Shown here one piece after another: positions 3-27,857 of a DNA stretch of 35,409 nucleotides. A program made the translations under genes and the position numbers. This stretch comes from a virus. Positions within the stretch are counted from its first letter, which is position 1. Each line of letters starts with the position of its first letter. A model generated the notes under the pieces. It ran no database searches. It saw only the letters and a program-made list of their open reading frames with translations, and was not told the DNA's origin. Where the stretch lies: the IMG/VR virus record IMGVR_UViG_3300008107_000992, positions 1 through 35,409 of that record; one strand, 5' to 3'.

Positions 3-647
3 TCGATCAAGGCCTCGCTTCCGGCCGCCAAGTGGTCGGCCCAGTGGCAGCAGCAACCGACGACTTCCGACGCTGGCATCATCCGCAAGGACTGGTGGCG
101 CATGTGGGAGAAGGAAGACATCCCGCGTCTGGACTATGTCCTTCAGGCCTACGATACCGCGTTCTCAAAGAAGGAGAGCGCCGACTATTCGGCGATCACG
201 ACGTGGGGAATCTTCAAGCCGGAGATAGATGGCCCCGACCACATCATCCTGCTCGACGCGCAGCGAGGCCGATGGAGCTTTCCGGAGCTCAAACAGGTTG
301 CCTTCGACGAGCACGAGTACTGGCAGCCTGACATGGTTCTCGTTGAAGCCAAGGCCACAGGTCAGCCGCTCATTGACGAGTTGCGCCTGAAGAACATCCC
401 TGCCCTTGGCTTTTCGCCGGGCGGCCGGGGCGGCGGGCGCGACAAGGTGAGCCGGATGCACATGGTTGCTCCGCTCTTCGAGGCGGGTATGGTATGGGCA
501 CCGGAGGCCAAGAGTTTCTCGGAAGACGTGATCGAAGAAGTGACTTCTTTTCCCAATGGCGATCATGACGACTTTTGTGATAGCATGACGCTGGCTCTAA
601 TGCGTTTCCGTCAGATGGCGATCATGACGACTTTTGTGATAGCATGA
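3..647 (+). CDS. terL: Terminase large subunit, C-terminal nuclease part (partial, frameshifted 3' end)
   Basis: Packaging motor subunit whose C-terminal RNase H-like nuclease cuts concatemeric DNA. The frame is open from base 3, so the N-terminal ATPase lies upstream of the window. Early residues contain SAQWQQQPT and a tryptophan-rich IIRKDWW stretch, followed by QAYDTAFSKKESADYSA, the usual first nuclease aspartate region, and a late NGDHDDFCDSM stretch with the last catalytic acidic residues. The final ten residues (MAIMTTFVIA) are not native: they come from reading the second copy of a 59-bp tandem duplication (556-673) out of frame. Without one copy the frame runs to a TGA at 743-745 that shares its A with the portal ATG. 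The nuclease motifs lie before the break, so activity might survive. Family call is strong; whether the frameshift is biological is unknown. Confidence 0.9.
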   Translation, partial: SIKASLPAAKWSAQWQQQPTTSDAGIIRKDWWRMWEKEDIPRLDYVLQAYDTAFSKKESADYSAITTWGIFKPEIDGPDHIILLDAQRGRWSFPELKQVAFDEHEYWQPDMVLVEAKATGQPLIDELRLKNIPALGFSPGGRGGGRDKVSRMHMVAPLFEAGMVWAPEAKSFSEDVIEEVTSFPNGDHDDFCDSMTLALMRFRQMAIMTTFVIA

Positions 648-673
648 CGCTGGCTCTAATGCGTTTCCGTCAG
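556..673 (+). repeat. Perfect 59-bp tandem duplication inside terL
   Basis: Bases 556-614 and 615-673 are identical by eye, directly adjacent 59-base copies starting ATGGCGATCATGACG and ending TTTCCGTCAG. Because 59 is not a multiple of three, the second copy shifts the terminase frame and brings a stop at 645-647. Removing one copy restores an open frame into the portal junction, so the single-copy form is ancestral. Confidence 0.97.
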
Positions 674-3493: not shown

Positions 3494-3706
3494 ATGGATG
3501 TTGTTAGCTTGTCGAAAGCGCTGTATAAGGTTTTAAGAGAGCGCGAAGCCGACATTGTTGAGATGGTCGCGACGGGCTCTCCCGCGAACTGGGAGCAGTA
3601 CCAGAGCATGGTTGGCGAGATACGGGGCCTCGCTTTTGCCAGAGAAGAACTTCGAGCCCTGCTGGAGAGAACAACAGAAGATGCCCTCGAAGCTTTATCT
3701 TCCTGA
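3494..3706 (+). CDS. Conserved small phage protein (70 aa)
   Basis: Predicted mostly helical, with VSLSKALYKVLREREADIVEM followed by WEQYQSMVGEIRGLAFAREEL. The second half resembles a small protein found at this place in related podoviruses (function unknown to me). A GGAGG-type ribosome binding site lies at about 3482-3486. The 56-base gap upstream (3438-3493) holds only a weak hairpin. The end overlaps the start of the GroES-like gene by 26 bases in another frame, so the two may be translationally coupled. Confidence 0.75.
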   Translation: MDVVSLSKALYKVLREREADIVEMVATGSPANWEQYQSMVGEIRGLAFAREELRALLERTTEDALEALSS

Positions 3707-4163
3707 CCACATTGTGGAACGAATTAACAAGACCAAGGCGGCCAGCGAGCCCGTGTCTGCTCAGGCTGCCTACGTCAAACCCGAGGAGCGTGTCCTCGAC
3801 CCCGAACTCCTTGACAAGCCCTTGGTAGAACGCCTGCCCCAACCGACAGGTTGGCGGATTCTTGTCATGCCCTATCAGGGTAAGGCAAAGACCGACGGCG
3901 GCTTGATCATCCCTGATCAGGTCCGTGACCGCGAAGCGCTGGCAACTGTCGTGGCATACGTCATGCGCCTTGGGCCGCTGGCCTACAGGGACCCGGACAA
4001 GTTCGGGGACGGCGCGGAACCGTGGTGCCAAGAGGGGCAGTGGGTCTGCATCGGCCGCTATGCTGGCTCGAGATTCAAGATCGACGGAGGCGAAGTCCGC
4101 ATCATCAACGATGATGAGGTTATTGCCACGATCCTTGAACCCGACGACGTACAACACGTGTGA
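3681..4163 (+). CDS. GroES-like co-chaperonin
   Basis: A 160-residue protein. Residues from about 53 to the end match the chaperonin-10 fold: GWRILVMPYQGKAKTDGGLIIPD (first strand and a mobile-loop-like region), LATVVAYVMRLGPLAY, GQWVCIGRYAG and a C-terminal DDEVIATIL strand. Phage co-chaperonins such as T4 gp31 replace or modify host GroES so that GroEL can fold the large capsid protein; position between portal and scaffold fits that job. The first 50 residues are an extension absent from bacterial GroES. Start chosen at ATG 3681 because it opens with a conserved MPSKLYLPDHIVERI segment; the frame is open further upstream, but that part overlaps the preceding gene and reads as noise. Alternative: a GroES-fold structural protein without chaperone activity. 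Confidence 0.8.
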   Translation: MPSKLYLPDHIVERINKTKAASEPVSAQAAYVKPEERVLDPELLDKPLVERLPQPTGWRILVMPYQGKAKTDGGLIIPDQVRDREALATVVAYVMRLGPLAYRDPDKFGDGAEPWCQEGQWVCIGRYAGSRFKIDGGEVRIINDDEVIATILEPDDVQHV

Positions 4164-7756: not shown

Positions 7757-8539
7757 GTGGTAGACATTCGCTCCATCTCGCAGGTAGGCACTTACGAGCC
7801 GTTTGAGCTGCAGGTTGGCCGGGGGCAAATCCCCGGCCACAGCGTCATCCACGTCTTTGGCCACAACCCAGATGTGGACACCAGCGAAGTGACGATCTGG
7901 CCAGCCCTCGGCCTTTTGGTTCACCCCGCGTCACCCACGATCATGACCATCAGCTCCTCGAGCGCTGACGACACGTCTGCTGGAACCGGGGCCCGCACGG
8001 TCTACATCCTCGGCATCAATAGCACGGGCGGCTATGTCTCTGAGACAGTCACTCTGAACGGCCAGACAGCCGTCAACACGGTCAATCAGTACGACGCCAT
8101 TGAGACCATGAGTGTGGTGTCTGTGGGCTCTGGCGGCGTGAACGCAGGCATCATCTATGCTGGCACTGGGACAGTCACTGCGGGCGTCCCTGCGGTCCCG
8201 TACAGCGCGATTGGCATCGGGGACAACCTGTCTCTCGTTGGGCACTGGACCTGCCCTGCCGGGTACACTGGATACCTTGTGAGCGGAAGCGTCACCAGCG
8301 GCACGTCAAACGCAAACCAGTACATCACCGCGCGCCTCAAGCTTCGCGCTCAGGACAACATCGTCCGCACTGCCGCGATCACCACGCTTCACGACGGAAC
8401 GGCAGATTACGACTTTTCATACCCCGTCAAGATTCAGGCGGGGGAGTGCCTCACTGCCACCGCCAAAGGTTCGGGCAATAACAACGACGTCTCGTCGTAC
8501 TTCCAGATTGTCCTGATCAAGAACGGAGGACCGCTCTGA
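7757..8539 (+). CDS. Structural protein, beta-rich (260 aa)
   Basis: Starts with GTG at 7757 (MVDIRSISQVGTYEPFELQVGRGQIPGH). The sequence is beta-rich with segments VIHVFGHNPDVDT, ARTVYILGINSTGGYVSETVTLNG and GHWTCPAGYTGYLVSGSV and few lysines. I recognise the start and the IxxFGxNxD pattern from proteins in the head-to-neck part of environmental podoviruses, where they are virion proteins of unknown role. It has only a weak AGGTAGGG ribosome binding site. Its stop overlaps the next ATG at 8539 (TGATG). A receptor-facing or capsid-fibre role is possible because of the CPAGYTG cysteine-bearing loop, but this is conjecture. Confidence 0.7.
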   Translation: MVDIRSISQVGTYEPFELQVGRGQIPGHSVIHVFGHNPDVDTSEVTIWPALGLLVHPASPTIMTISSSSADDTSAGTGARTVYILGINSTGGYVSETVTLNGQTAVNTVNQYDAIETMSVVSVGSGGVNAGIIYAGTGTVTAGVPAVPYSAIGIGDNLSLVGHWTCPAGYTGYLVSGSVTSGTSNANQYITARLKLRAQDNIVRTAAITTLHDGTADYDFSYPVKIQAGECLTATAKGSGNNNDVSSYFQIVLIKNGGPL

Positions 8540-8799
8540 TGGGTAAAAGTCCGGCTTGGACACGCAAGGAGGGTAAGGACCCGAAAGGCGGTCTGAACGC
8601 CAAGGGCCGCGCTTCGGCGAAAGCGCAGGGGATGAACTTGAAACCCCCTGCCCCAAACCCAAAGAGCAAGGAAGACAAAGGCCGCCGCGCGTCATTCTGT
8701 GCCCGGATGTCCGGGATGAAGGCGAAGCTGACGAGCGAGAAGACCAAGCGCGATCCAAACAGCCGGATCAATAAGTCACTTCGAGCGTGGAACTGCTGA
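8539..8799 (+). CDS. Small lysine-rich protein (DUF6321-like)
   Basis: 86 residues, very basic: SPAWTRKEGKDPKGGLNAKGRASAK, then RRASFCARMSGMKAKLTSEKTK, RDPNSRINKSLRAWNC. I recognise this as the family often annotated DUF6321 in podoviruses and other marine phages. The invariant AWxRKEG, GGLNAKGR, FCARMxGM and SLRxWNC blocks are all present. Function is unknown; the charge and the C-terminal cysteine suggest nucleic-acid or virion binding. It is the first of three consecutive small Lys-rich genes and overlaps the preceding stop by one base. Confidence 0.8.
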   Translation: MGKSPAWTRKEGKDPKGGLNAKGRASAKAQGMNLKPPAPNPKSKEDKGRRASFCARMSGMKAKLTSEKTKRDPNSRINKSLRAWNC

Positions 8800-8851
8800 C
8801 ATGAACCGTGGTAGTATGACCCAACAGATCACGGAAACCGGAGGGAAGAGG

Positions 8852-9004
8852 ATGGCAAAGGTTGGCTTGTATGCTAACATCAACGCCAAGCGGAAGCGCA
8901 TCGCCGCAGGCTCTGACGAGAAGATGCGGAAACCGGGAACCAAGGGCGCACCGACCGCACAAGCGTTTCGGCAGTCCGCCAAAACAGCGAAGGGGAAGAA
9001 ATGA
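8852..9004 (+). CDS. Small lysine-rich protein (50 aa)
   Basis: MAKVGLYANINAKRKRIAAGSDEKMRKPG, then KGAPTAQAFRQSAKTAKGKK. The GLYANIxAKRxRIAAGSxEKMRKPGxKGAPT core is familiar from many freshwater and marine phages. I place the start at ATG 8852, behind a GGAGGGAAGAGG ribosome binding site, instead of the upstream ATG at 8801, whose extra residues do not belong to this family. The stop overlaps ATGATG of the next small gene (9001). Function unknown. Confidence 0.75.
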   Translation: MAKVGLYANINAKRKRIAAGSDEKMRKPGTKGAPTAQAFRQSAKTAKGKK

Positions 9005-9114
9005 TGAAGGCTGGCAAAAAGGGCGGCAAGGGCTGCTCGGCTGACATGATCAGCCCACGCAAGGCTATGGCCATGGGCATGAAGCCTGCAGTGGTCAAGA
9101 AGGGCAAGAAGTAA
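9001..9114 (+). CDS. Small lysine-rich protein (37 aa)
   Basis: Reads MMKAGKKGGKGCSADMISPRKAMAMGMKPAVVKKGKK. ATG at 9001 overlaps the previous stop (ATGA at 9001-9004), with a GAAGGGG ribosome binding site before it; ATG 9004 is an equal alternative start. It ends three bases before the next gene at 9118, so it fills the gap exactly. The low-complexity KKGGKG sequence and lysine bias match its two neighbours. Below usual length cut-offs, so prone to be missed. Confidence 0.55.
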   Translation: MMKAGKKGGKGCSADMISPRKAMAMGMKPAVVKKGKK

Positions 9115-9117
9115 ACC

Positions 9118-9783
9118 ATGGCAACCTCAGGGACCCGGACGTTCAATCTGGACGTCGGCGAGCTTATCGAAGAGGCGTATGAGCGGTGCGGGCTTGAAGT
9201 CCGCACAGGCTACGACGCGCGCACGGCACGGCGGTCCCTGAACCTGATGTTCGCTGAGTGGGCCAACCGCGGTTTGAACCTGTGGACCGTGAACCAAGCC
9301 ACGATCACCGTCACGGTCAACGTCGCGACCTACACCGTCAACGCCGATCACGCGGACATCCTTGAGATGGTTCTTCGTCGGGACGGCACGGATTACGAAG
9401 TCGAGCGCATCAGCCGCGGGGACTTCTTCCTTCTGCCCAACAAGACCACGCAGGGGCGGCCGTCGCAGTTTTACTACGACCGTCAGATCGCTCCGAAGAT
9501 TACCGTCTGGCAGGTTCCCGAGAACTCGACCGACCAGTTGATCTACTATTACGTCCGCCGCATCGAGGACGCAGGAACCCTGCAGAACACCACCGACATG
9601 CCGTGGCGGTTCTACCCTTGCATGGTTGCTGGCTTGGCTTACTATCTTGCCATGAAGCGGGCCCCTGACCGGATGGCCATGCTCAAGGCGATCTATGACG
9701 AAGAGTTCACGCGCGCGGCCGAAGAAGACGAGGACCGGGTGCCGTTGAAGCTGCAGCCTGATGTGGCCTACCTGAGGTTCTGA
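9118..9783 (+). CDS. Head-tail connector / tail adaptor protein (gp4-like)
   Basis: A 221-residue neck protein, probably the ring docked below the portal, similar in size and position to P22 gp4. It contains LIEEAYERCGLEVRTGYDARTARRSLNLMFAEWANRGLNLW, an alpha-helical start typical of this family, then ISRGDFFLLPNKTTQGRPSQFYYDRQ, and PWRFYPCMVAGLAYYLAMKRAPDR. These blocks recur in connector proteins of podoviruses with similar gene order. It is part of a tightly coupled set: its stop overlaps the ATG of the next gene (TGATG). The C-terminus is acidic (EEDEDRVPLKL). Confidence 0.85.
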   Translation: MATSGTRTFNLDVGELIEEAYERCGLEVRTGYDARTARRSLNLMFAEWANRGLNLWTVNQATITVTVNVATYTVNADHADILEMVLRRDGTDYEVERISRGDFFLLPNKTTQGRPSQFYYDRQIAPKITVWQVPENSTDQLIYYYVRRIEDAGTLQNTTDMPWRFYPCMVAGLAYYLAMKRAPDRMAMLKAIYDEEFTRAAEEDEDRVPLKLQPDVAYLRF

Positions 9784-14628: not shown

Positions 14629-16899
14629 ATGGCCAGCACGTATACAACGAACAGCGGCATTGAGCTCATTGCAAGCGGAGAACAGTCCGGTACTTGGGGC
14701 ACCACGACCAACACCAACTTGTCAATCATTGACCGACTGGTGAACGGGGTCGGAGCAATCGCGCTTGCAGGAACAACCCACACGCTGACCACCTCTGACG
14801 GAGTTCTTTCGGACGGCCAGTACTCTGTCTTGGTTTTTGGCGGAGCGCCCTCCGGAACCAACACAGTGACGATCTCGCCAAACGACGGGCAGCACGTCTA
14901 CATCGTGTGGAACGTAACCAGCGAAAGCGTGGTTTTGACCCAAGGTTCGGGAGGCAACGTCACTGTAGCCAGCGGCGACACCAAAGTTGTGTACGCCGAC
15001 GGCACTGGTGCAGGGGCCGCGGTCATAGACATCACCGCCAACTTTGCCATGTCGAGCGTCAAGATTACCGGGGGCTCGATCACCGGGATCACCGACCTTG
15101 CTATCGTAGACGGGGGCACTGGCGCGTCGAGCGCCTCGGCCGCTCGGACCAACCTTGGTCTCGCCATCGGCACTGACGTGCAGGCTTACGACGCCGAGTT
15201 GACCGCCATCGCAGGTCTGGCGGTGACCGATGGGAACATCATTGTCGGCAACGGCACGACGTGGGTTGCCGAGAGCGGCGCGACGGCCAGAACCTCTCTT
15301 GGTCTTTCCATCGGGACGAACGTGCAGGCCTACGACGCCGGGCTGCAATCGATCTCAGGACTGACGACGTCTGCCGATCAGATGATCTATACGACGGCTC
15401 TGGATACCTACGCCACCACAGGTCTTACGGCTGCAGGTCGCGCCATTCTGGATGACGCCGACGCTTCGGCCCAGCGCACAACCCTCGGCCTCGCCATTGG
15501 AACTGACGTGCAGGCCTACGATGCGGGACTGCAGTCCATCTCCGGACTGACGACGTCCGCCGATCAGATGATCTATACGACGGCCCTCGACACCTACGCC
15601 ACCACAGGTCTTACGGCTGCAGGCCGCGCCCTTCTGGATGACGCCGACGCTTCGGCCCAGCGCACGACCCTCGGCCTCGCTATCGGTACGAACGTGCAGG
15701 CCTACGACGCCGAACTAACCGCCATCGCAGCTCTTGCGGTTACCGACGGCAACATCATTGTCGGCGACGGCACGACGTGGGTGGCCGAAAGCGGCGCGAC
15801 GGCGCGAACCTCTCTTGGTCTCGGCACCATGGCGACTCAGGCTGCGTCGTCTGTGACGATCACTGGCGGCTCTATCACGGGCATTACCGATCTGGCCGTT
15901 GCTGACGGTGGAACAGGGGCGTCTGACGCTGGCACAGCTCGGACCAACCTCGGCCTTGCCATCGGCACGGACGTGCAGGCCTACGACGCGGGGTTGCAGT
16001 CGATCTCTGGGCTGACGACATCTGCCAACCAGATGATCTATACGACGGCGCTGGACACCTACGCCACTACGGGGCTCACTGCGGCTGGTCGCGCCATTCT
16101 TGATGACGCCGACGCTTCGGCCCAGCGCACGACCCTTGGCCTCGCCATTGGCACAGACGTACAGGCCTACGACGCTGAGCTGACCGCTATCGCGGGTCTT
16201 GCGGTTACCGACGGAAACATCATTGTCGGCAACGGTACGACTTGGGTTGCCGAGAGCGGAGCGACGGCACGAACCTCTCTGGGTTTGGGGGCGGGGGACA
16301 GCCCGACCTTCACCGCGGTTACTGCCGGGCAGGTCGATGTCACGGCGCAGGGCGACGTGCGCTTCCAAGACGCGGCCGGGGGACAGTTCGTCGCGCTGCA
16401 AGGCCCCGGCACTGTCGCCACCAGCTACACTCTGTCGCTGCCCACGGCCGACGGCACCAACGGTCAGGCTGTTGTGACGAGTGGCTCCGGCCAGCTTTCT
16501 TTCTCTGACGTGGTCACTCCTACGGGGACTCAGACGCTAACCAACAAGACGCTCACCGATCCTGCGATTATCGGCGCAATCTTGGAAGACATCTTTACGA
16601 TCACGGATGGGGCCGCCTTCGAAATCGACCCCGGCAATGGAACCATTCAGTTGATCACACTTGGCGCAAGCCGCACCCCCAAAGCCACAAACTTTGCCAA
16701 CGGCGAATCTGTGACGCTGATGGTGAATGACGGCTCGGCCTACACCCTAACGTGGACCGACGCGACTTTCGGCGGCTCTGGCGTGGTGTGGAAAACCGAC
16801 GGCGGCACCGCGCCGACGTTGAATACGACGGGGTATACCATTATGGTTTTGTTCAAAGTTGGTGGTCAGGTCTACGGCGCTCGGGTAGGTAACGCATAA
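14629..16899 (+). CDS. Tail fibre protein with long repeats
   Basis: 756 residues. N-terminal MASTYTTNSGIELIASGEQSGTWGTTTNTNLSIIDRLVNGVGAIALAG is a widespread phage fibre start (GEQSGTWGxTTNTNL). The centre has six copies of a GT[D/N]VQAYDA[E/G]L block, alternating with TAIAGLAVTDGNIIVGNGTTWVAESGATARTSLGLG and LQSISGLTTSADQMIYTTALDTYATTGLTAAGRA[I/L]LDDADASAQRTTLGL. A C-terminal part begins near GDSPTFTAVTAGQVDVT and ends with a beta-rich domain (VWKTDGGTAPTLNTTGYTIMVLFK). It binds host surface and probably forms trimers. Strong ribosome binding site (TAAGGAGGCGAC); the stop overlaps the next gene's ATG. Confidence 0.85.
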   Translation: MASTYTTNSGIELIASGEQSGTWGTTTNTNLSIIDRLVNGVGAIALAGTTHTLTTSDGVLSDGQYSVLVFGGAPSGTNTVTISPNDGQHVYIVWNVTSESVVLTQGSGGNVTVASGDTKVVYADGTGAGAAVIDITANFAMSSVKITGGSITGITDLAIVDGGTGASSASAARTNLGLAIGTDVQAYDAELTAIAGLAVTDGNIIVGNGTTWVAESGATARTSLGLSIGTNVQAYDAGLQSISGLTTSADQMIYTTALDTYATTGLTAAGRAILDDADASAQRTTLGLAIGTDVQAYDAGLQSISGLTTSADQMIYTTALDTYATTGLTAAGRALLDDADASAQRTTLGLAIGTNVQAYDAELTAIAALAVTDGNIIVGDGTTWVAESGATARTSLGLGTMATQAASSVTITGGSITGITDLAVADGGTGASDAGTARTNLGLAIGTDVQAYDAGLQSISGLTTSANQMIYTTALDTYATTGLTAAGRAILDDADASAQRTTLGLAIGTDVQAYDAELTAIAGLAVTDGNIIVGNGTTWVAESGATARTSLGLGAGDSPTFTAVTAGQVDVTAQGDVRFQDAAGGQFVALQGPGTVATSYTLSLPTADGTNGQAVVTSGSGQLSFSDVVTPTGTQTLTNKTLTDPAIIGAILEDIFTITDGAAFEIDPGNGTIQLITLGASRTPKATNFANGESVTLMVNDGSAYTLTWTDATFGGSGVVWKTDGGTAPTLNTTGYTIMVLFKVGGQVYGARVGNA
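15148..16290 (+). repeat. Long near-identical coding repeats in tail fibre
   Basis: Blocks encoding GTDVQAYDAGLQSISGLTTSADQMIYTTALDTYATTGLTAAGRAILDDADAS occur three times (starting near 15313, 15502 and 15964) with close DNA similarity, and the AELTAIAGLAVTDGNIIVGNG block occurs three times (near 15190, 15709 and 16171). Such repeats are prone to recombination and to assembly error. Boundaries are approximate. Confidence 0.85.
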
Positions 16900-18995
16900 T
16901 GATTGGTGGAAAGCTTATCAGCGCCACTTCGGGTGTGGGCACAGCGCCAAAGGCCATCGCCCTGAGTGTTGCCGAGTTTCCGGGCGTCGTCGCCTACTCG
17001 TGGAACATCAGCGGATTTGGTGGGCTGTACAGCACCCCGACCACGCTGCCCACAGGCGCTGGAAACGGCATTGCCTTTAGCCCTGACGGCCTCTCGGTGG
17101 CCGTGGCCCATCTCACAACACCCTTTGTCACGGCCTACCCTTGGTCGGGGTCCGGGTTTGGAACCAAGTATTCCAACCCGGCTACCCTACCCACGGGAAA
17201 TGGAAACGGCGTGACTTTCAGTCCCGACGGCTCGGCGATAGTTGTGGCGCACGAGACCACCCCATTTGTCACGGCCTACCCTTGGTCGGTTTCTGGGTTT
17301 GGGACCAAGTACGCCAACCCGGCTACCCTACCCACGGGCGCTGGTAAGATTGCCTCCTTCAGCCCTGATGGGTCGGCAATCGCCGTGGCCCACAGCACCA
17401 CCCCATTTGTCACGGCCTACCCTTGGTCGGGGTCCGGGTTTGGAACCAAGTATTCCAACCCGGCTACCCTCCCCACGGGAAATGGAAACGGCGTGACTTT
17501 CAGTCCCGACGGCTCGGCCCTAGCCGTAGCTCACACCACCACCCCCTTTGTCACGGTCTATCCTTGGTCCGGCTCTGGGTTTGGGACCAAGTACGCCGAC
17601 CCGGCTACCCTGCCGACAGGGGTTGGAGAGGGTGTCTCTTTTCATCCCGAGGGCTCAGCAATCGCCGTGGCCCACAATACCACCCCCTTTGTCACGGTCT
17701 ACCCTTGGTCCGGCTCTGGGTTTGGAACCAAGTATGCCGATCCGGGAACCCTGCCGACGGGGAACGCTTCTGACGTCGCTTTTGGCCCAGACGGCTCGGC
17801 GATAGTTGTGGCCCACAGCACCACCCCATTTGTCACGGCCTACCCTTGGTCTGGCTCTGGATTTGGGGCCAAGCACGCCAACCCGTCTACCCTGCCCTCT
17901 GCCTCTGCTTTTGGCGTGGCCTTCTCTATTGTTGGCTCTCCGCAAACGGCATACACGGAGTACGTGGCGATAGCCAACGTTACACCAAATAGCACAACTC
18001 CACCGTTTCTTGGTATTTTTTCGGTTTATCCATGGTCTAGCTCAGACGGGTTTGGGACTAAGTACTCCGACCCAGCTACATTTCCGACGGGAACAGGGCA
18101 GGGGGTAGCGTTTAGCCCCGATGGCAGCGTCTTGGCGGTGGGGTATGGCACTACTTCCCCCCGTGTCTTGGCTTACCCTTGGTCAGGGGCTGGATTTGGG
18201 ACTAAGTATTCGGACCCTGCCTCGGTACCCACCTCAACCTGTTATGATGTGGCTTTTAACCCGGAAGGAACTGCCATAGCTTTGGCTCTTGACTCCTCTC
18301 CGTATGTTTCCGTCTATGCTTGGTCAAGCTCTGGGTTCGGAACTAGGTATTCCAACCCGGCAAGCCTCCCAGCAGGCACCCCCCTTGGGGTGACTTTTAA
18401 TCCGGCGGGAACTGCCATAGCCTTGGCCCATCTCACAACACCCTTTGTCACGGCCTACCCTTGGTCGGGGTCCGGGTTTGGAACCAAGTATGCCAACCCG
18501 TCGACGCTTCCAACAGGCACTGGCCGCGGCCTTGGGTTTTCCACTGACGGCTCTCAACTGGCTGTGGCCCACGACACTTCTCCGTTCTTCTCTGTTTACG
18601 CTTTCTCAATCTCTGGGTTTGGGGCTAAGACTGCTAACCCCTCTGTTCTTGCAACGGCTGCTGGTACAGGTATTAAGTACAGTCCTCAGGGTCCAAATGC
18701 CTTGTTCGTCTCAATTAGTGGTCCTCCGTACATTCTAGGCTACACGAGTGCCAGCGGCTCAAAGTTCTCAGACCCTGTCTCTCTGCCACCGGGCGTCGGG
18801 CAAGACCTTGCCTTCAGCCCAAACGGCTGGGCCGTGGCCCTGGCCTGCGGTACGACACCCTTTTTATTGGCCTATAAACGGTCACTTAACGACAGCGCCG
18901 GGCTGCAAGGGGGATTTGGTACTCAGTTCTCTAGCCCGAGCACCTTGCCTGCGGGGGCAGGCAGAGGCGTTATCTTTGGCCGCACCCCCGCCTAA
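16899..18995 (+). CDS. Fourteen-repeat beta-propeller-like protein (WD40/PD40-like)
   Basis: 698 residues made almost entirely of tandem units of about 47 residues, each with TTPFVTAYPWSGSGFGTKYxNPATLPTG followed by GVxFSPDGSAIAVAH. The FSPDG-xxxAVAH pattern is that of WD40/PD40-type propeller blades. I count fourteen repeats; 2, 4, 5 and 6 are closest, 12-14 are diverged, and 7 and 8 carry insertions. Fourteen equals two seven-bladed propellers, but the fold count is inference. N-terminal cap is MIGGKLISATSGVGTAPKAIAL. The gene follows the tail fibre (TAATG overlap) and precedes the tail-assembly genes, so a virion role, e.g. receptor-binding or fibre-tip, is likely. Propellers of this kind are not standard in podovirus tails. 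Confidence 0.8.
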   Translation: MIGGKLISATSGVGTAPKAIALSVAEFPGVVAYSWNISGFGGLYSTPTTLPTGAGNGIAFSPDGLSVAVAHLTTPFVTAYPWSGSGFGTKYSNPATLPTGNGNGVTFSPDGSAIVVAHETTPFVTAYPWSVSGFGTKYANPATLPTGAGKIASFSPDGSAIAVAHSTTPFVTAYPWSGSGFGTKYSNPATLPTGNGNGVTFSPDGSALAVAHTTTPFVTVYPWSGSGFGTKYADPATLPTGVGEGVSFHPEGSAIAVAHNTTPFVTVYPWSGSGFGTKYADPGTLPTGNASDVAFGPDGSAIVVAHSTTPFVTAYPWSGSGFGAKHANPSTLPSASAFGVAFSIVGSPQTAYTEYVAIANVTPNSTTPPFLGIFSVYPWSSSDGFGTKYSDPATFPTGTGQGVAFSPDGSVLAVGYGTTSPRVLAYPWSGAGFGTKYSDPASVPTSTCYDVAFNPEGTAIALALDSSPYVSVYAWSSSGFGTRYSNPASLPAGTPLGVTFNPAGTAIALAHLTTPFVTAYPWSGSGFGTKYANPSTLPTGTGRGLGFSTDGSQLAVAHDTSPFFSVYAFSISGFGAKTANPSVLATAAGTGIKYSPQGPNALFVSISGPPYILGYTSASGSKFSDPVSLPPGVGQDLAFSPNGWAVALACGTTPFLLAYKRSLNDSAGLQGGFGTQFSSPSTLPAGAGRGVIFGRTPA
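17104..18491 (+). repeat. Propeller gene repeats, 141-bp unit with near-identical blocks
   Basis: Unit period is 141 bases (47 codons), e.g. TTTGTCACGG at 17124, 17265 and 17406. Bases 17124-17236 match 17406-17518 at all but one position. Bases 17104-17171 are identical to 18424-18491, nine units apart, although intervening units differ. This indicates recent copying or conversion between repeats. Confidence 0.88.
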
Positions 18996-19013
18996 CCCAC
19001 TGAAAGGATAATC

Positions 19014-19305: not shown

Positions 19306-19791
19306 ATGTTCGTCAAGGCCACAAACGGCGCAATCGTCCAGTACCCCTACAGCGTGGGTGCGCTTCGCCGTGACAACCCCAACACCAGCTTTCCGAGGAC
19401 CATCCCCGACGAGGTTCTGGCCGAGTACGGCGTGTACGAGGTCAAGACTCCCCCGGCCCCGGACCACGATCCGGAGACGCACTTCGTAGAGTACGCCCCC
19501 GTCCCCACCTTTGTTGGTGGGGCTTGGGTGTATGCACCCTCCGTGCGTCCGCTTTCCGTAGAGCAGATCGCCGAGCGCACCGCTTCTCGGGCCTCGGCTA
19601 TTCGCATTCAGCGCGACAGCCTGCTAAAGGACTGCGACTGGGTGGTGGTCAAAGCTGTAGATCAAAACGCACAGGATAGTTTTGGCATTCAAATCCCCGT
19701 TGTTTGGCTTACCTATCGACAAGCTCTTCGCGACATCACAGCGCAACCGGGTTTCCCGGACACCGTAACTTGGCCTGCAAAACCGGAGTAA
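19306..19791 (+). CDS. Tail assembly chaperone-like protein (Phage_tail_APC domain)
   Basis: 161 residues. N-terminus MFVKATNGAIVQYPYSVGALRRDNPNTSFPRTIPDEVLAEYGVYEV is a fibre-tip-like domain seen in fibre-end or fibre-assembly proteins, and the C-terminal part (about residues 103-161) RDSLLKDCDWVVVKAVDQNAQ ... WLTYRQALRDITAQPGFPDTVTWPAKP matches the Phage_tail_APC type. The WxxYRQALRDIxxQPGFPxxVxWP signature is clear. Start set at ATG 19306 after AAAGGA; an upstream frame extension overlaps 19014-19277 and is noise. Members are thought to help fibre assembly or be part of the fibre itself. A short insertion (DSFGIQIPVVW) is compatible with a divergent member. Confidence 0.8.
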   Translation: MFVKATNGAIVQYPYSVGALRRDNPNTSFPRTIPDEVLAEYGVYEVKTPPAPDHDPETHFVEYAPVPTFVGGAWVYAPSVRPLSVEQIAERTASRASAIRIQRDSLLKDCDWVVVKAVDQNAQDSFGIQIPVVWLTYRQALRDITAQPGFPDTVTWPAKPE

Positions 19792-19794
19792 GCC

Positions 19795-20037
19795 ATGACC
19801 ACTGAGACGCTCTGGAGCGCAGGCCTGTCAGCCATCCTCGCCCTCGTGGGCTGGATTCTCAAAGGCCATTCCGACGAGGTGCAGCGCCTGCAAATCCTGC
19901 TCAATCGCACCCGCGAAGAGATGGCGCGGGACTACGTCACCAAGACTGACGTGCAGTCCAGCATGAACATGCTGATCGCCCGGATCGATAACCTCGACTC
20001 CAAGATCGACGCTCTGCTCCGGAGCCTAGCAAAGTGA
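19795..20037 (+). CDS. Small membrane-anchored coiled-coil protein, lysis region
   Basis: 80 residues: one hydrophobic segment near the N-terminus (LWSAGLSAILALVGWIL, about residues 6-22) followed by charged helix (HSDEVQRLQILLNRTREEM) and a C-terminal LIARIDNLDSKIDALLRSL heptad. This layout is shared by haemolysin XhlA-like and holin-accessory proteins. It heads the lysis region and its TGA overlaps the GTG of the next small gene. Could be a holin, a spanin-like or another lysis accessory protein; sequence does not decide. Confidence 0.65.
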   Translation: MTTETLWSAGLSAILALVGWILKGHSDEVQRLQILLNRTREEMARDYVTKTDVQSSMNMLIARIDNLDSKIDALLRSLAK

Positions 20038-20177
20038 ATGTGCCGCTGATCTGGGTGGCGTACACGCACCTTTGGATCGACGGCCGCATGGTATTTGTCA
20101 AGGTTTGCAGGTATAGTGCGGACATAGCGCTGGCGGTTCATCCGCTGTTTCCCTGCCCACCGTTCTGGAGCCTGTAG
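20034..20177 (+). CDS. Small lysis-region protein (47 aa)
   Basis: GTG at 20034 forms a GTGA overlap with the previous stop. The reading frame encodes VNVPLIWVAYTHLWIDGR, then MVFVKVCRYSADIALAVHPL and ends CPPFWSL, with TAG at 20175-20177 immediately followed by the next ATG at 20178. This exact fit between neighbours, and aromatic/cysteine-rich composition that resembles small proteins in equivalent places, support a real gene. No membrane segment of full length. Function unknown. Confidence 0.6.
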   Translation: MNVPLIWVAYTHLWIDGRMVFVKVCRYSADIALAVHPLFPCPPFWSL

Positions 20178-20669
20178 ATGTTTGATCCCGTCAGCATTGG
20201 TGTCGCGCTCAGTGTTGGGAGCAAAGCATTCTCAATGCTCAAGCAGGGCATTGCGGCTGGGCGCGAGATACAAGACATGGCGTCTCAGCTCTCCGAATGG
20301 GGCAAGGCGGTCTCTGACATTTCCTACGCCGCCCAGAAGGCTAACGAACCGCCGGGTGCGTTCAGAACGCTGTTCGGCGGCGGAAGTCAAAAGAGTGCCA
20401 TTGATATTTTCGCGGCGCAAAAGCAGTGTGAACAGCAGCGCAAAGAGTTGCGTCAGCTTATCAGCTACACCTACGGCAACGATGCTTGGCTAGAGTTCCA
20501 GAACATTGAGCGCCGGGTTCGAGAACAACAGCGAGAGCAGGTTTACCGTCGCAAGGAACTGATCGAAGGCCTTCTAGAAGCTGCGCTTTGGACGGTCATC
20601 ATCTTGGCGACGAGCGTTATCGCTGGCTTTGGTCTATACTTCTGGGGCCGCTATTTAGGGAGGTGGTAA
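20178..20669 (+). CDS. Conserved phage protein with C-terminal membrane segment (163 aa)
   Basis: MFDPVSIGVALSVGSKAFSMLKQGIAAGREIQDMASQLSEW is an N-terminal pattern I recognise from proteins of pelagic and cyanobacterial phages located near lysis or internal virion genes. The middle is helical (AQKQCEQQRKELRQLISYTYG), and a membrane helix lies near residues 137-158 (AALWTVIILATSVIAGFGLYFW). It is probably membrane-attached with its main domain in the cytoplasm. Not enzymatically recognisable. It begins right after the preceding stop. Possibly a lysis-control protein. Confidence 0.75.
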   Translation: MFDPVSIGVALSVGSKAFSMLKQGIAAGREIQDMASQLSEWGKAVSDISYAAQKANEPPGAFRTLFGGGSQKSAIDIFAAQKQCEQQRKELRQLISYTYGNDAWLEFQNIERRVREQQREQVYRRKELIEGLLEAALWTVIILATSVIAGFGLYFWGRYLGRW

Positions 20670-20670
20670 G

Positions 20671-21000
20671 ATGCTAGAGAAGATTATCTGGGCAGTTGCT
20701 GCTGCTTCTGTCGTGACGATTATCTACTTTTCTGGTGACGGATTCTATCGTTACCCATGCCAAGACCCAGCCAACTGGTCTGCGGTTATCTTGGCTGGCA
20801 CCATCTTCACCATCCTCTACAGCCTTGTCTTCGTGACCCAGCCTCTTGGCGAGTCGAGCGAGAACGACCGCAAGTTCTTCGAACTGCTGACCCCCATCGC
20901 CTCGTTTATCGTCGGCGCTCTCGGCGGCATCATGGCATCAGGCAACAATCGCAACAGGGGTGGCAACGATGAGCCGCCGACAAAGGAGTACACCGAATGA
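20671..21000 (+). CDS. Small membrane protein with YPCQDPANW motif, holin candidate
   Basis: 109 residues with three hydrophobic stretches: IIWAVAAASVVTIIYF (about residues 5-20), SAVILAGTIFTILYSLVFV (about 37-55) and ASFIVGALGGIMAS (about 77-90). DGFYRYPCQDPANW is a motif that I recall from small phage membrane proteins of marine phages. Two to three membrane helices plus a charged tail fit a holin, as does the place upstream of the endolysin. The start lies one base past the preceding TAA (AAGATG), after GGGAGG. Its stop overlaps ATG of the next gene. Confidence 0.65.
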   Translation: MLEKIIWAVAAASVVTIIYFSGDGFYRYPCQDPANWSAVILAGTIFTILYSLVFVTQPLGESSENDRKFFELLTPIASFIVGALGGIMASGNNRNRGGNDEPPTKEYTE

Positions 21001-21224
21001 TTGGCAAACTCGTTGGAATGTTCATGGGCCGCAAGCTCAAGGAAAAAGCTATTGATGCCGTGCTAGACAAGGTGAACCTGCCTGACCCGGTGGAGAACGC
21101 AATCAAGGTTGCGGCCACTGGCAACGTCGGCGACCTGCTCGGCGGCATGGGCAAGGACATGGCAAAAGAAGCTGCGCTGGACGCCGTCACCAAGAAGGTG
21201 CCGATCAAGAGACCGAAGAAGTGA
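20997..21224 (+). CDS. Small basic protein, lysis region (75 aa)
   Basis: MIGKLVGMFMGRKLKEKAIDAVLDKVNLPDPVENAIKVAA then GNVGDLLGGMGKDMAKEAALDAVTKKVPIKRPKK. Amphipathic helices with a basic tail; no clear membrane segment. ATGA overlap with the previous gene and GTGA overlap with the nuclease gene show tight coupling. I do not recognise a family. Confidence 0.6.
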   Translation: MIGKLVGMFMGRKLKEKAIDAVLDKVNLPDPVENAIKVAATGNVGDLLGGMGKDMAKEAALDAVTKKVPIKRPKK

Positions 21225-21628
21225 AGTGGCTTGGCATCCTCCTCCTGTCGGCCAGCCCTGCGCTGGCAACGCCCTATGAAATTACCCGCGTCATTGACGG
21301 CGATACCGTGGAGATTGCGGTGGATTTTCTTCCGTCGCCCCTGCCGCCAAGACTGTCGATTCGAGTCATGGGCGTCGACACCCCAGAAAAGGCCCCTCGC
21401 GCTCAATGCGATTCGGAAGCAGCCCTCGCTAGAAAGGCAAGCGCGTTTACAAAAGACGCGGTTGCCAATGCCCTTGAGGTAGATGTCGTCATTCTCAAGT
21501 GGGACAAGTACGGAGGCCGGGTTCTGGGTGAGGTCTATCTTGACCACCAGAGCCTAGCTCAAAGCCTGATCTCAGCGGGCCTAGCCCGTCCATATAAAGG
21601 CGAGGCTAAGTCCTCGTGGTGCGAATAG
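21221..21628 (+). CDS. Secreted staphylococcal-nuclease-like protein (SNase)
   Basis: 135 residues. Signal peptide MKWLGILLLSASPALA, cleavage likely after residue 16. The rest is the OB-fold SNase domain: RVIDGDTVEI (residues 23-32, calcium-site aspartate D28), R48 and E56 in SIRVMGVDTPEK, and R100 in KYGGRVLGEV, the counterparts of S. aureus Arg35, Glu43 and Arg87. All key residues appear intact, so it is likely active and Ca-dependent. Length is a little short compared with the mature SNase family. GTG start overlaps the previous gene and the endolysin follows nine bases later, so it is in the lysis operon. Likely exported to the periplasm; role there (host DNA breakdown or a lysis-time nuclease) is inference. 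Confidence 0.85.
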   Translation: MKWLGILLLSASPALATPYEITRVIDGDTVEIAVDFLPSPLPPRLSIRVMGVDTPEKAPRAQCDSEAALARKASAFTKDAVANALEVDVVILKWDKYGGRVLGEVYLDHQSLAQSLISAGLARPYKGEAKSSWCE

Positions 21629-21637
21629 GAGATATAG

Positions 21638-22525
21638 ATGAGCCTGATTACCGAAGCCCAACTGGCCGTTATGATCCCGACCAACAAGGAAGTTGGAGCG
21701 TGGTGCGCGGCCCTCAACGAGATGCTGCCCAAGTACGGCATCACCACCGACAAGCGCATCGCTGGCTTCATCAGCCAGTGCGCCCATGAGAGCATGGACT
21801 TCCGCGTCCTCGAAGAGAACCTGAACTACAAGGAGGCCACGCTCCTGAAGGTGTTCCCGCGCTACTTTGGCCCCGGCAAAGAGAACGCCGCCGAATATGC
21901 GGGCAAGCCTGAGAAGATTGCCAACTATGTGTACATGGATAAAAACCGCTCCAAGTCAGGTGCTTTAGGCAATCACAAGGAAAATGACGGCCATTTTTTC
22001 AGAGGAAAAGGTCTGAAGCAAATTACTGGGCGTTCGAATACTACTGCCTTTGGAAAGACCGTTGGCATGACCGCCGAGGAGGCAGCCGAGTATTTGCTGA
22101 CCAAGAAGGGCGCACTTGAGAGCGCGCTGTGGTTCTGGGGCAGCCGCAATCTGAACGACGTGGCTGACACGGGCGATGTGGTGAAGTTGACCAAGATCAT
22201 CAACGGCGGCAGCATCGGGCTTGCCGACCGTCAGGCGCGGTATGCCAAGGCCATGGCTGCGCTGGGTGGCAAGGTTTCTGCTCCGGCCCCGGCCCCGGCC
22301 CAAGCTGCTCCGACCCCGGCCCCTGCGGCCGTCGGCAATGAGACCCTGAAGCGCGGCAGCACAGGCGCTCTGGTGAAGCAGGTGCAGGAGAAGCTTGGCA
22401 TTGACCCCGCCGACGGTATCTATGGGTTTTGGACTTCGAACGTGGTAAAGAAGTGGCAGGCCGACAACGGCCTTGTTGCCGACGGCGTTGCTGGTCCGAA
22501 GACATTGGCTAAACTGCTCGGGTAA
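21638..22525 (+). CDS. Endolysin, GH19-like muramidase with C-terminal PG-binding domain
   Basis: 295 residues. N-terminal catalytic domain (about residues 1-210): IAGFISQCAHESMDFRVLEENLNY with the conserved HE pair at about H50-E51 and E60, GHFFRGKGLKQITGRSNTTAFG and KIINGGSIGLADRQARYAKAM typical of GH19 chitinase-like phage lysozymes. Then an Ala/Pro linker (APAPAPAQAAPTPAPAA), then a peptidoglycan-binding domain (about 237-295): TLKRGSTGALVKQVQEKLGI and GFWTSNVVKKWQADNGL, VADGVAGPKTLAKLL. It cleaves the cell wall for release. No signal peptide, so it depends on a holin. AGGAGA ribosome binding site precedes it. Confidence 0.9.
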   Translation: MSLITEAQLAVMIPTNKEVGAWCAALNEMLPKYGITTDKRIAGFISQCAHESMDFRVLEENLNYKEATLLKVFPRYFGPGKENAAEYAGKPEKIANYVYMDKNRSKSGALGNHKENDGHFFRGKGLKQITGRSNTTAFGKTVGMTAEEAAEYLLTKKGALESALWFWGSRNLNDVADTGDVVKLTKIINGGSIGLADRQARYAKAMAALGGKVSAPAPAPAQAAPTPAPAAVGNETLKRGSTGALVKQVQEKLGIDPADGIYGFWTSNVVKKWQADNGLVADGVAGPKTLAKLLG

Positions 22526-22554
22526 TGTAGTATCTCCAGCAACAGGAGACCGCC

Positions 22555-23379
22555 ATGCCACTCTCGAAGCTCGTATTCCGGCCCGGTATCAACCGCGAAA
22601 CCACCGCCTACGCCAACGAGGGCGGCTGGTGGGACGGTAACCTTGTGCGCTTCCGGGCCGGAAAACCTGAGAGCATCGGCGGATGGTCCAAATACTCTTT
22701 GAACCAGTCGCTCGGAACTGGGCGCTCCCTCATGACATGGACCGCTCTTGACGGGACGGTCTACACGGGCATGGGCACCAATCTGAAGTACTACGCTATC
22801 CGGGGTGGTGGCTTAAACGACATTACGCCGCTTCGTGAGACGACAGTTGCTGGGGCGGTCACCTTTGCCGCGACCAACGGGTCGGCGGTCATCACCGTCT
22901 CCGACACGAACCACGGTGCGTTGCCTAATGACTTCGTAACTTTCTCTGGCGCAGCGTCGCTTGGTGGCGTCATTACCGGGACCATCCTGAACGCCGAGCA
23001 CCAAATCACAACGGTCATCAACGCGAACAGCTACACGATCACTGTGAGCGTCGCGGCCAACGCGTCTGATGTCGGGAACGGTGGGGCCTCGGTCATCGGT
23101 GCTTACCAAATCAACACAGGCCTAAACGTCTCGGTTTTTGGTACGGGCTGGGGGACTGGCGTTTGGTCGCGCGACAGCTGGGGCTCTGGGTCTTCGACGA
23201 CACTTCCGGGGTCGCAGCTGCGCGTCTGGACGCAGGACAACTACGGTGAGGACCTCATCATCTGCGTTAAGGACGGTGGCATTTTCTATTGGGATGAAAG
23301 CGTTGGCTTGGCTACACGCGCCGTCCCCCTATCAAGCCTGCCCGGGCCGTCATGTCATTGCTTTTGGCTGCGACCCTGA
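22555..23379 (+). CDS. Tail protein, N-terminal part (frameshifted gene)
   Basis: MPLSKLVFRPGINRETTAYANEGGWWDGNLVRFRAGKPESIGGW is the familiar start of a large podoviral tail protein of the stabiliser/needle region. Residues continue with beta-rich sequence to LATRAVPLSSLPG, then switch to ten out-of-frame residues (PSCHCFWLRP) before the TGA at 23377-23379. The native continuation is in the +1 frame from about 23342. Together with 23342-24367 it makes one gene of about 600 residues. Preceded by AGGAGA as ribosome binding site. Confidence 0.8.
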   Translation: MPLSKLVFRPGINRETTAYANEGGWWDGNLVRFRAGKPESIGGWSKYSLNQSLGTGRSLMTWTALDGTVYTGMGTNLKYYAIRGGGLNDITPLRETTVAGAVTFAATNGSAVITVSDTNHGALPNDFVTFSGAASLGGVITGTILNAEHQITTVINANSYTITVSVAANASDVGNGGASVIGAYQINTGLNVSVFGTGWGTGVWSRDSWGSGSSTTLPGSQLRVWTQDNYGEDLIICVKDGGIFYWDESVGLATRAVPLSSLPGPSCHCFWLRP

Positions 23380-24367
23380 AAGCTCTCCCGGTGTTCAAGA
23401 CCCCCTTGTCATCCGGTTCTCTGACCAAGAGAACCCAGCGGAGTGGCGGTCTTTGGCTACCAACACGGCGGGAGAGCTGCGGATTGGTACAGGGTCCGCG
23501 ATCATCACAGCCGTTCAAACGAAGCAGCAGATCATTATTTTTACCGAGACGTCAATCCACGCAATGCAGTATATCGGACCTCCGTTTACTTTCGGCGTTG
23601 GAGAGGTGTCCTCGGCTATCTCACTCATGAGCCCCAACGCCGCCGTAGCCGTGGGCGACATCGTCTTCTGGATGGGCAAGAACGAGTTCTATGCCTACGA
23701 CGGTGCCGTGACGCAGATTCCTTGCGACGTTAAGGAGTATGTGTTCAGCGGAATCAATCAGGATCAATCGCTCAAGATTTGCGCCGGGCACAACAGCTCT
23801 TTCTCGGAGGTGTGGTGGTTCTATCCAAGCACAAGCAGCCAAGAAAACGACCTCTATGTCGTTTACAACTACGAGCAGCGTGTTTGGTACTACGGAGCGA
23901 TGCCTAGAACAGCATGGGCCGACCGAAACGTGCTTGGTTTCCCGATTGCAATCTCCCCGGACGGGTATGTCTACTACCAAGAAAGCGGTTTGAACGATAA
24001 CAGCGCGGACCCTCCCGCGGCGCTGGATACGTACATCGAGTCGAGCGTGGTCGATATTGGCGACGGCGACCAGTTCATGTTTGCCACCCGCATCATCCCG
24101 GACCTGACGTTCCGCAACTCGACCAACGGCGCACCGACGGCGACCCTTACGCTCAAGGCTCGAAACTTTCCCGGCGGGACATACTTTGCCACGGACAGCG
24201 ATCCGGTGGTCAAGACCGCTTCGGTTCCGGTCGAGCAGTTTACCGAGCAGGTCTTCGTGCGCCTGCGCGGTCGGTCAATGTCTCTGCGAATCGAGTCGAA
24301 TCAGGTCAACACTGCGTGGCGGCTTGGCGACCCGAGGCTTGATCTCCGCGCTGACGGACGGAGGTAG
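23138..24367 (+). CDS. Tail protein, C-terminal part (frameshifted gene)
   Basis: Authentic coding begins near 23342 with RHVIAFGCDPESSPGVQDPLVIRFSDQENPAEW, then TNTAGELRIGTGSAIITAVQTKQQIIIFTETSIHAMQYIGPPFTFGV, VFWMGKNEFYAYDG and VYNYEQRVWYYGAMPRTAW, blocks I recognise from the same tail protein family. The part from 23138 to 23341 is a shadow of the N-terminal fragment. From memory of family members, a linker of about 17 residues between SLPG and RHVIAFG is missing, which would fit a deletion of 3n+2 bases. Likely the gene product of a tail hub or needle protein. Confidence 0.75.
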   Translation: MVRAGGLAFGRATAGALGLRRHFRGRSCASGRRTTTVRTSSSALRTVAFSIGMKALAWLHAPSPYQACPGRHVIAFGCDPESSPGVQDPLVIRFSDQENPAEWRSLATNTAGELRIGTGSAIITAVQTKQQIIIFTETSIHAMQYIGPPFTFGVGEVSSAISLMSPNAAVAVGDIVFWMGKNEFYAYDGAVTQIPCDVKEYVFSGINQDQSLKICAGHNSSFSEVWWFYPSTSSQENDLYVVYNYEQRVWYYGAMPRTAWADRNVLGFPIAISPDGYVYYQESGLNDNSADPPAALDTYIESSVVDIGDGDQFMFATRIIPDLTFRNSTNGAPTATLTLKARNFPGGTYFATDSDPVVKTASVPVEQFTEQVFVRLRGRSMSLRIESNQVNTAWRLGDPRLDLRADGRR

Positions 24368-24369
24368 TC

Positions 24370-24666
24370 GTGGCTACAAACGTCCCGGCCCCATTCTTCC
24401 CGACGCCCCCAGAAAACTACAACCGCCAGTACATGGCGCAGCTTGTCCGGGCTTTCTCGGTTTTTGTCCAGCAGGTCAACAACCCCGGGGATGCCGTCTA
24501 CACAAACCTGCAGCTAACAAACCTTCCGACCAATGATTACGGCCTACAGACTGGAGCCTTGTTCCAGCAGGACGGTTTTGTTAAGATCACGCAAGCAAAC
24601 ACGCCGCATGTGGCGGGGGTATCTGGAACCTCGGCTCTCGGCATAGTCACGGTGGTAATCACATGA
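24370..24666 (+). CDS. Small virion-type protein (98 aa)
   Basis: Starts with GTG at 24370 (MATNVPAPFFPTPPENYNRQYMAQLVRAFSVFVQQVNNPGD), a start common in small phage tail/internal genes. Continues with ALFQQDGFVKITQANTPHVAGVSGTSALGIVTVVIT. Recognised from related podoviruses as a conserved hypothetical next to the tail protein. Stop overlaps the next ATG (ATGA at 24663-24666). Confidence 0.75.
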   Translation: MATNVPAPFFPTPPENYNRQYMAQLVRAFSVFVQQVNNPGDAVYTNLQLTNLPTNDYGLQTGALFQQDGFVKITQANTPHVAGVSGTSALGIVTVVIT

Positions 24667-25400
24667 GCCTCCTCTCTACAATCGGAAGCCTCGTTGGCCT
24701 CGTTGCGGGCGGTCCTGCCGGGGCGGCCCTTGGCTCTGGCCTTGGTACCCTGTTCGGTGGCGGCAGCATCTCCGACGCCTTTAAGACAGGCATAGGGTCT
24801 CTCGTCACGGGCGGTCTTGGCGGGAAGGCTGGGCTTGTGGCCGATATGCTGGGCGGGGGCGCGTCTTCGCAAGCGGCAGGGTCGGCGGTGTTTGACGCCT
24901 TCAGTGGCGGCGGGAAGGGCGGGAACCCGCTGGGAAGCCTGCTCGGCTTTGGCGGGCAGCCTTCGGCAGCCGCGGCGGCGACCGGAGCCAAGAAGACGCA
25001 AGGCCTCGGTGGCCTGCTTCAGGCCTTTGACAACCCGCTCATGCTTGCCGCAATCTTGAAAGCGACCGAGCCCAAGAACGTGACCATCACCACCCCCGAA
25101 CAGCAACGCCAGCTTGAGACGGGCGAGCGGCTCCCGGACTATCGTGGAACCCCGGCCTTTGACTACCGCTACGGCTCCAACTTCGCCAAGGGTGGCATGG
25201 TCGAGGGCCCCGGAAATGGAACCAGCGATTCGGTTCGCGCCCGCATCTATCAGGGCGGTCGCCCCGTCCAAGAAGCGCGGCTCTCGGACGGTGAGTTCGT
25301 CATGACCAACCGCGCCGTCCGCGGCGCTGGCGGTGGTGACCGCGCCAAGGGCGCGGCAGAGATGTACCGTATGATGCAGCGCTTTGAGCGGAGGGCATAA
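24663..25400 (+). CDS. Internal virion / ejection-type protein, Gly/Ala-rich (245 aa)
   Basis: A hydrophobic Gly/Ala-rich N-terminal half (LLSTIGSLVGLVAGGPAGAALGSGLGTLFGGG, about residues 3-34) that may insert into the host membrane, followed by the EGPGNGTSDSVRARIYQGGR and ARLSDGEFVMTNRAVRGAGGG segments known from phage internal virion and tape-like proteins. C-terminus is charged helix. It starts the ejection-protein block. The membrane-inserting role is inference. ATGA overlap before and TAATG overlap after. Confidence 0.75.
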   Translation: MSLLSTIGSLVGLVAGGPAGAALGSGLGTLFGGGSISDAFKTGIGSLVTGGLGGKAGLVADMLGGGASSQAAGSAVFDAFSGGGKGGNPLGSLLGFGGQPSAAAAATGAKKTQGLGGLLQAFDNPLMLAAILKATEPKNVTITTPEQQRQLETGERLPDYRGTPAFDYRYGSNFAKGGMVEGPGNGTSDSVRARIYQGGRPVQEARLSDGEFVMTNRAVRGAGGGDRAKGAAEMYRMMQRFERRA

Positions 25401-26477: not shown

Positions 26478-27857
26478 ATGTCAGGTGTCTACAACCGCAA
26501 GCTCTTCCGTCAAAGCGGCGCTCGCGACGAACTCCGCAAGATGGGCGGGATCATGTCCAGCTCCGAGGAGCTGATGCGCGCGGCACTGATGACCGGGATG
26601 CAAGCTCCGGGGCCCTCGGACCTTGGGCCTATGGCCATGCCGCAGCAGCCTGTGATTGGCATGCCCGCTCCGCCCGTTATGCAGCCGCAGCAGCCGATGG
26701 TGGAGCCGCAGCAACCCATGGACATGGGGATGCAGCAGCCGATGGATTCCGGATATGGAATGCAGCCGTCGCAGCCCATGATGCAGCAGCAACCGATCCA
26801 GCCGCCAATTGCTGAGCCTGCCTACATGCCGCCGCAGATGCCGCAATCTTTGCAGATGCCGCAGGCGCAGCCCCCGGGGTTTTTCCTCGGCGGCCTGATC
26901 AACCTCGCCCCGACGATGGGTTCCGCAGAGGCCTCTGAAGACCCGGCCGCTCCTCCCGCTCCGGCAGCCCGGCCGAACCCTGCTCGCGCCATAGGCATCG
27001 GGCCTTCGACCGTCCGGTCGGCTGAGCCTGTCGATATCGGGGCGACCGCTGGTACTGTCGTTGTGCCGCCAAAGGTGAATGCGATTGGCGTGGACGCATT
27101 TGTGGAGCGGATCGGAGCGAAACTCGATACGGCCTCCCCGGAGGAAGTGGGCGACGACATCGTGAAAACCGCGGTCGAAGAACCCACGGGTGACCTGCGG
27201 TTCGACCTCGCCAAGACCCTAGAAGAGATGACGGGCGATCTGTCGGCCTACGAGAAAGACATCGACACCCTGAACCGCGGCATCATTGGTGCGGCGATTG
27301 CGGCCGGAACCTCCGCACGTGCCACGGAGAATATCGCCAAGGGTATGTTGGTCGGTATGGAAAGCGTCAAGGCGACAGAAGAGCGCCGGGCAGCCGATGC
27401 TCAGGCCTTGCAGCTCAAGGCGCTGGAGGTTCGTGCTGCGGAGCAGGCTGCCAGAGAAGCTGAGATCAAGGCCGAGGAGAAAGCTAAGACCGAGGCCAAA
27501 GCTAAGCTGGCAGAGGATGTTCGAAGCGCGTATTCGAGAGCGCGGGATTCCATCATTGAGTCCGGCATCAACAACGTCGGCAAGCTCCCGGACGGCATGA
27601 CCCTGACGGAGTACGCCGAGTCGTTTGGTCGTTCTCAGGCTGAAGCCACGTATGGCAAGGAAGCCGTTGACGCCATCCTCGGGACCCCCGCCGCCCCTCA
27701 AAGCACTCTTAGTGCCGAGGACAAAGCCGAGCTCTTGAACGAGGCCAAGGTTAAAATCGGAAAGAACCCCGCCCTGAGAACTGCGGTCAGGGACAGGCTT
27801 TCCAAGGATTTCGGCATCACGCCGGAAGAACTTGATGCGGTTCTGGGGGGCTCTTGA
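26478..27857 (+). CDS. Internal virion protein with Met/Gln/Pro-rich region (459 aa)
   Basis: N-terminal MSGVYNRKLFRQSGARDELRKMGGIMSSSEELMRAALM, a low-complexity Met/Gln/Pro stretch (about residues 40-135, PMAMPQQPVIGMPAPPVMQPQQP onward), then a conserved-looking domain FVERIGAKLDTASPEEVGDDIVKTAVEEPTGDL and a helical coiled-coil part (RRAADAQALQLKALEVRAAEQAAREAEIKAEEKAKTE). The make-up resembles other podoviral internal virion proteins. It lies between two ejection proteins and ends by overlapping the next gene's start. Exact role not visible. Confidence 0.75.
   Translation: MSGVYNRKLFRQSGARDELRKMGGIMSSSEELMRAALMTGMQAPGPSDLGPMAMPQQPVIGMPAPPVMQPQQPMVEPQQPMDMGMQQPMDSGYGMQPSQPMMQQQPIQPPIAEPAYMPPQMPQSLQMPQAQPPGFFLGGLINLAPTMGSAEASEDPAAPPAPAARPNPARAIGIGPSTVRSAEPVDIGATAGTVVVPPKVNAIGVDAFVERIGAKLDTASPEEVGDDIVKTAVEEPTGDLRFDLAKTLEEMTGDLSAYEKDIDTLNRGIIGAAIAAGTSARATENIAKGMLVGMESVKATEERRAADAQALQLKALEVRAAEQAAREAEIKAEEKAKTEAKAKLAEDVRSAYSRARDSIIESGINNVGKLPDGMTLTEYAESFGRSQAEATYGKEAVDAILGTPAAPQSTLSAEDKAELLNEAKVKIGKNPALRTAVRDRLSKDFGITPEELDAVLGGS

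Follow-up and report, generated by a model that had tools for sequence, protein, structure and literature searches.

A 59-base duplication in the terL gene of an uncultivated phage contig is very probably an assembly artefact

Tandem duplications and deletions are among the local misassembly classes of NucDiff, according to the accessible part of its description (PMC5508607). The window analysed here is a whole IMG/VR virus record of 35,409 bases, classed as linear. It resembles such cases in that, set against other assemblies of near-identical DNA, it has an extra adjoining copy and lacks certain blocks. It differs from them in that there is no strain reference genome, sister contigs and relatives standing in for one. 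In the literature searched, as far as its text was available, nothing came closer to the exact artefact than NucDiff (PMC5508607). Exact head-to-tail copies, as seen in the window terL, also occur naturally in phage coding genes as in-frame tandem repeats. However, the natural coding repeats of related loci have periods of 21–66 bases, all divisible by three, whereas the window repeat has a period of 59, is blunt and breaks the frame. The window TerL fragment finds some of its best relatives from annotated phages in the TerL proteins of Pelagibacter phage HTVC027P and Phage DSL-LC04 (53–56% identity); being below 60% identical, they represent a distant lineage.

The features at the left end of the window are:

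3–647, + strand: terL (large terminase), its 5′ part lying outside the record; open frame, PF17289 and terminase matches in annotated phages
556–614, + strand: first 59-base copy; exact self-match
615–673, + strand: second, identical 59-base copy, with a blunt junction at 614/615; exact self-match
674–745, + strand: end of native terL (23 codons, then TGA), in a different frame from the upstream part; sequence, and same tail in L181 and L183
745–3240, + strand: portal gene, intact; open frame and matches to annotated portal proteins

By direct sequence comparison, the adjoining stretches 556–614 and 615–673 are identical, as the initial annotation had reported, and an exact match of this length is far beyond chance expectation. 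The identity extends over one period and no further: bases 555 and 614 differ, as do 615 and 674, leaving zero microhomology at the 614/615 junction. The gene was identified as terL by its PF17289 match (Terminase_6C, 34.0 bits versus a cutoff of 22.6) and by the portal gene downstream. The copies had been placed right after the last nuclease motif, which is incorrect since this motif, HDDFCD, sits inside the copied unit. As recorded, the frame passes HDDFCD, reaches MRFRQ at 614, continues with 10 foreign residues and stops at TGA 645–647 (...MTLALMRFRQ MAIMTTFVIA stop). Lost from it is the native tail of 23 residues, GGFVALEGEDVGDDFIPRKREYY, encoded by 674–742, whose TGA (743–745) shares base 745 with the portal ATG; the relatives L181 and L183 encode this tail as well. 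The coding effect described initially (about 23 native residues lost and 10 new, with a native frame ending in a TGA over the portal ATG) agrees with these positions. Judging from the sequence, a −1 slip on TTTT 632–635 would restore the native frame, but there is no call for such a frameshift rescue if the duplication is an error, and the idea was set aside.

To see how the site is arranged in relatives, viral contigs were searched with a 204-residue TerL piece, the best 80 loci being taken. We examined 85 terL loci; five of the seven contigs with an exact single-copy right junction were new to the set. Among the matches listed, the frame continued into a tail ending in YY in all 85 loci (84 directly and L006 via its intein-like insertion), and none of them carried two HDDxxD motifs, 73 having one and 12 a different motif or, in L006, a split one. 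In an exact junction search, the single-copy right-hand junction matched 7 viral contigs and the doubled junction 0. The spacing of flanks was also measured by placing 300-base flanks on the loci left after removal of duplicates. One copy was found in 11 of the 12 usable contigs, while the twelfth, L006, had 918 extra bases. The initial annotation had suggested a comparison with terL homologues; the extra 59 bases were present in none of the relatives examined. The nearest strains at terL were L183 (97.9% over 1,301 bases) and L181 (97.5% over 3,818 bases). None of the contigs matched the window exactly at terL, and the single-copy form of the strain itself was thus not seen, which counts against an artefact.

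L006 (IMGVR_UViG_3300042562_001954), a close relative, has its TerL interrupted within the last nuclease motif, precisely at HDDF/C, by an intein-like insertion. The insertion point corresponds to window 575/576, inside 556–614, and the 918 extra bases read CLAEG...HN between F and C. Pfam matches were weak, Intein_splicing and Vint (intein, Hint) both scoring below their curated cutoffs, and no homing-endonuclease domain was reported by Pfam in L006. In another locus, L023, about 270 bases near the terL end (3678–3950) are absent from the near-identical L029, L041 and L053 and possibly represent a small mobile element.

Comparison with other contigs revealed at least three more blunt joins in the window, each breaking a gene:

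13762/13763: blunt join, 155 bases missing versus L213, L214, L216 and L217, with frame changes; contig comparison
20783/20784: blunt join, 134 bases missing versus L097, L202 and L218; contig comparison
23346/23347: blunt join, 50 bases missing; contig comparison, 23/23

The most informative sister contig was L097 (IMGVR_UViG_3300008113_004651), whose 5,220-base alignment to window 19417–24757 contains 0 mismatches and 4 block differences. Two blocks (38 and 83 bases) are found in the window only and two (134 and 50 bases) in L097 only. L097 is thus a near-identical contig that differs from the window by blocks and not by point changes. A second strain, L098/L202, contains all four blocks (220 mismatches in 4,887 bases), which indicates that the window and L097 each lost two. 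At the 134-base site, 133–139 bases were present in 12 of 12 comparable contigs, and the ORF 20671–21000 is a fusion across the join. The 50 bases lost at 23346/23347 were present in all 23 comparable contigs; this join breaks a gene seen as ORFs 22555–23379 and 23138–24367. Of the blocks lost in L097, that of 83 bases was present in 12/12 other contigs and that of 38 bases in 9 of 10, the tenth, L228, mapping elsewhere. A similar loss was observed in L201 (3300008261), which is without 198 bases found in the window, L195 and L184.

At 13762/13763, seven contigs of the same strain (L210, L211, L213, L214, L216, L217 and L218) diverge from the window exactly at the join. The gene at this site has an uninterrupted frame of 448 codons in L213 and L216 and of 470 in L218, and the window copy of this 13.56–14.63 kb gene has two frame changes. 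By flank mapping, L211 and L218 gave 221 bases, that is 155 plus one 66-base repeat unit; an exact 30-base match nonetheless places the point 155 bases on in these contigs. With 10 of 16 contigs falling on another repeat unit by flank mapping, this site is less clean than those at 20783 and 23346. A further 4-base loss versus L213, L216 and L218 was noticed near 14158, within repeats and outside the seven blunt joins considered below.

Other regions of the record showed peculiarities of their own. From 16920 to 19013, similarity to same-strain contigs is lost; this is where a 698-residue repeat protein lies (16899–18995), which suggests an exchangeable tail-fibre-like cassette. The end of contig L220 (IMGVR_UViG_3300020042_007629, 8314–9418) is an inverted match to window 18422–17318 and looks like another assembly chimera. 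Finally, the very long virion-like protein of 27854–32041 opens with MGKFSGVFDDLE and closes with this motif again in two nearly identical versions (GKFKGVFDDLE). The second pair corresponds to a 48-base repeat kept in frame, at 31748–31839, and forms a peptide motif at the terminus.

The seven joins have in common zero microhomology: 59, 155, 134 and 50 bases in the window, 38 and 83 in L097 and 198 in L201. At random breakpoints, zero microhomology is calculated to occur at about 0.56 per join and at about 0.02 for all seven, and it would be even rarer for deletions arising via short homologies. We also surveyed tandem duplications in 1,364,653 bases of related loci, duplicates included. Exact ones occurred in 24 loci, and in every case the period was divisible by three and the run exceeded one period. 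The 59/59 arrangement of the window is unlike every tandem duplication in the surveyed related loci.

Taken together, the other blunt joins in the record (155, 134 and 50 bases missing, each with zero microhomology) and in sister contigs, and the single copy in relatives, lead us to consider with high confidence that the second 59-base copy arose in the assembly of this contig, which comes from an uncultivated phage, and is not a real feature of the phage. In the actual phage, the stretch is most likely present once and TerL normal. Neighbouring contigs or reads may have been set end to end with the overlap or gap left unchecked, a step we infer from the pattern. Contig ends overlapping by 59 bases would then have had the overlap written twice, in terL, and gaps between contigs would have been ignored, with the loss of 155, 134 and 50 bases. 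Such end-to-end joining would produce errors of both signs, an exact blunt duplication and blunt deletions. Strain variation in the sample may explain why contigs broke at these places. The identity of L183 to the window is 96.3% left of the terL join and 99.3% right of it (Fisher p 7e-5), as would be expected if pieces of two strains were joined; L181 showed no identity change across the join. A chimera with a distant strain was rejected, as no consistent identity shift to L002–L005 occurred at 556–673 and the change was clear in L183 only. No block differences separate L213, L214 and L217, which belong to the same number series and are in full agreement. The fault is therefore not in every contig of the series, a point counted against the artefact.

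Two technical routes to such errors were considered and not retained. General stripping of N gaps is unsupported: although the window is without N, runs of N are retained in two other loci. The second route concerns k-mer size. We take records numbered 33000081xx–84xx to come from Lake Erie. For Lake Erie Microcystis isolates, IDBA-UD was run with a k-mer ladder of 52–92 in steps of 8, as given in the available text of PMC5647855. Two of the join sizes, 59 and 83, equal k−1 for k 60 and 84 of this ladder, but the other five do not fit, which counts against the artefact, and the ladder may not be that used for the record.

Besides an assembly artefact, the option selected by the evidence, the initial annotation had listed a mutation in a defective element and a reversible slippage switch; neither is supported, as no relative has two copies and the other blunt joins of the record are unrelated to slippage. 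A real, recent tandem duplication in one lineage, either a loss-of-function terL mutant maintained via co-infection or a decaying defective element, is very unlikely. The copies are exact and adjacent, the flanking bases are equally distant from L002, L004 and L005, and the record contains several broken genes, which would suit a decaying element. Yet L097 has 0 mismatches over 5,220 bases and is broken elsewhere, where decay should give point mutations and shared lesions; every join is blunt; and the terL tail is kept in 85/85 relatives among the matches listed. There is a slimmer chance still that a real duplication marks a fragile or variable site at the L006 intein point, the two-copy TerL without its conserved tail defining a packaging-deficient sub-population. 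Less probable again is a switch in which a 59-base unit is gained or lost by slippage, turning terL off or on. Its period, not a multiple of three, would indeed shift the frame, but the two-copy form occurs in 0 viral contigs and in no relative examined, so that both states were not seen, and with zero microhomology there is no short direct repeat to seed slippage. A repair scar, left by a cut where L006 carries its intein and mended with a duplication, borders on the negligible: despite the 918-base intein-like insertion at a site within 556–614 and its weak intein/Hint matches, the window holds no intein remnant, Pfam shows no homing-endonuclease domain in L006, and the other blunt deletions of the record are left unaccounted for.

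The initial remark that, if the duplication is real, the phage makes a terminase with an altered C-terminus is probably moot. According to the accessible text of PMC5727402, ATP binding by D6E TerL is influenced by the C-terminal arm of the protein, for which contact with the portal is predicted. If the duplication were real, a phage left with a tail-less TerL would probably be poor at packaging, which adds to the doubt that the two-copy form dominates the sample. The gene calls at terL, 20671–21000 and 22555–24367 of this record are not to be trusted. More generally, blunt, microhomology-free block insertions and deletions in environmental phage contigs can mimic gene switches, fused genes and pseudogenes, and such artefacts can be exposed without reads by comparison to a mismatch-free sister contig.
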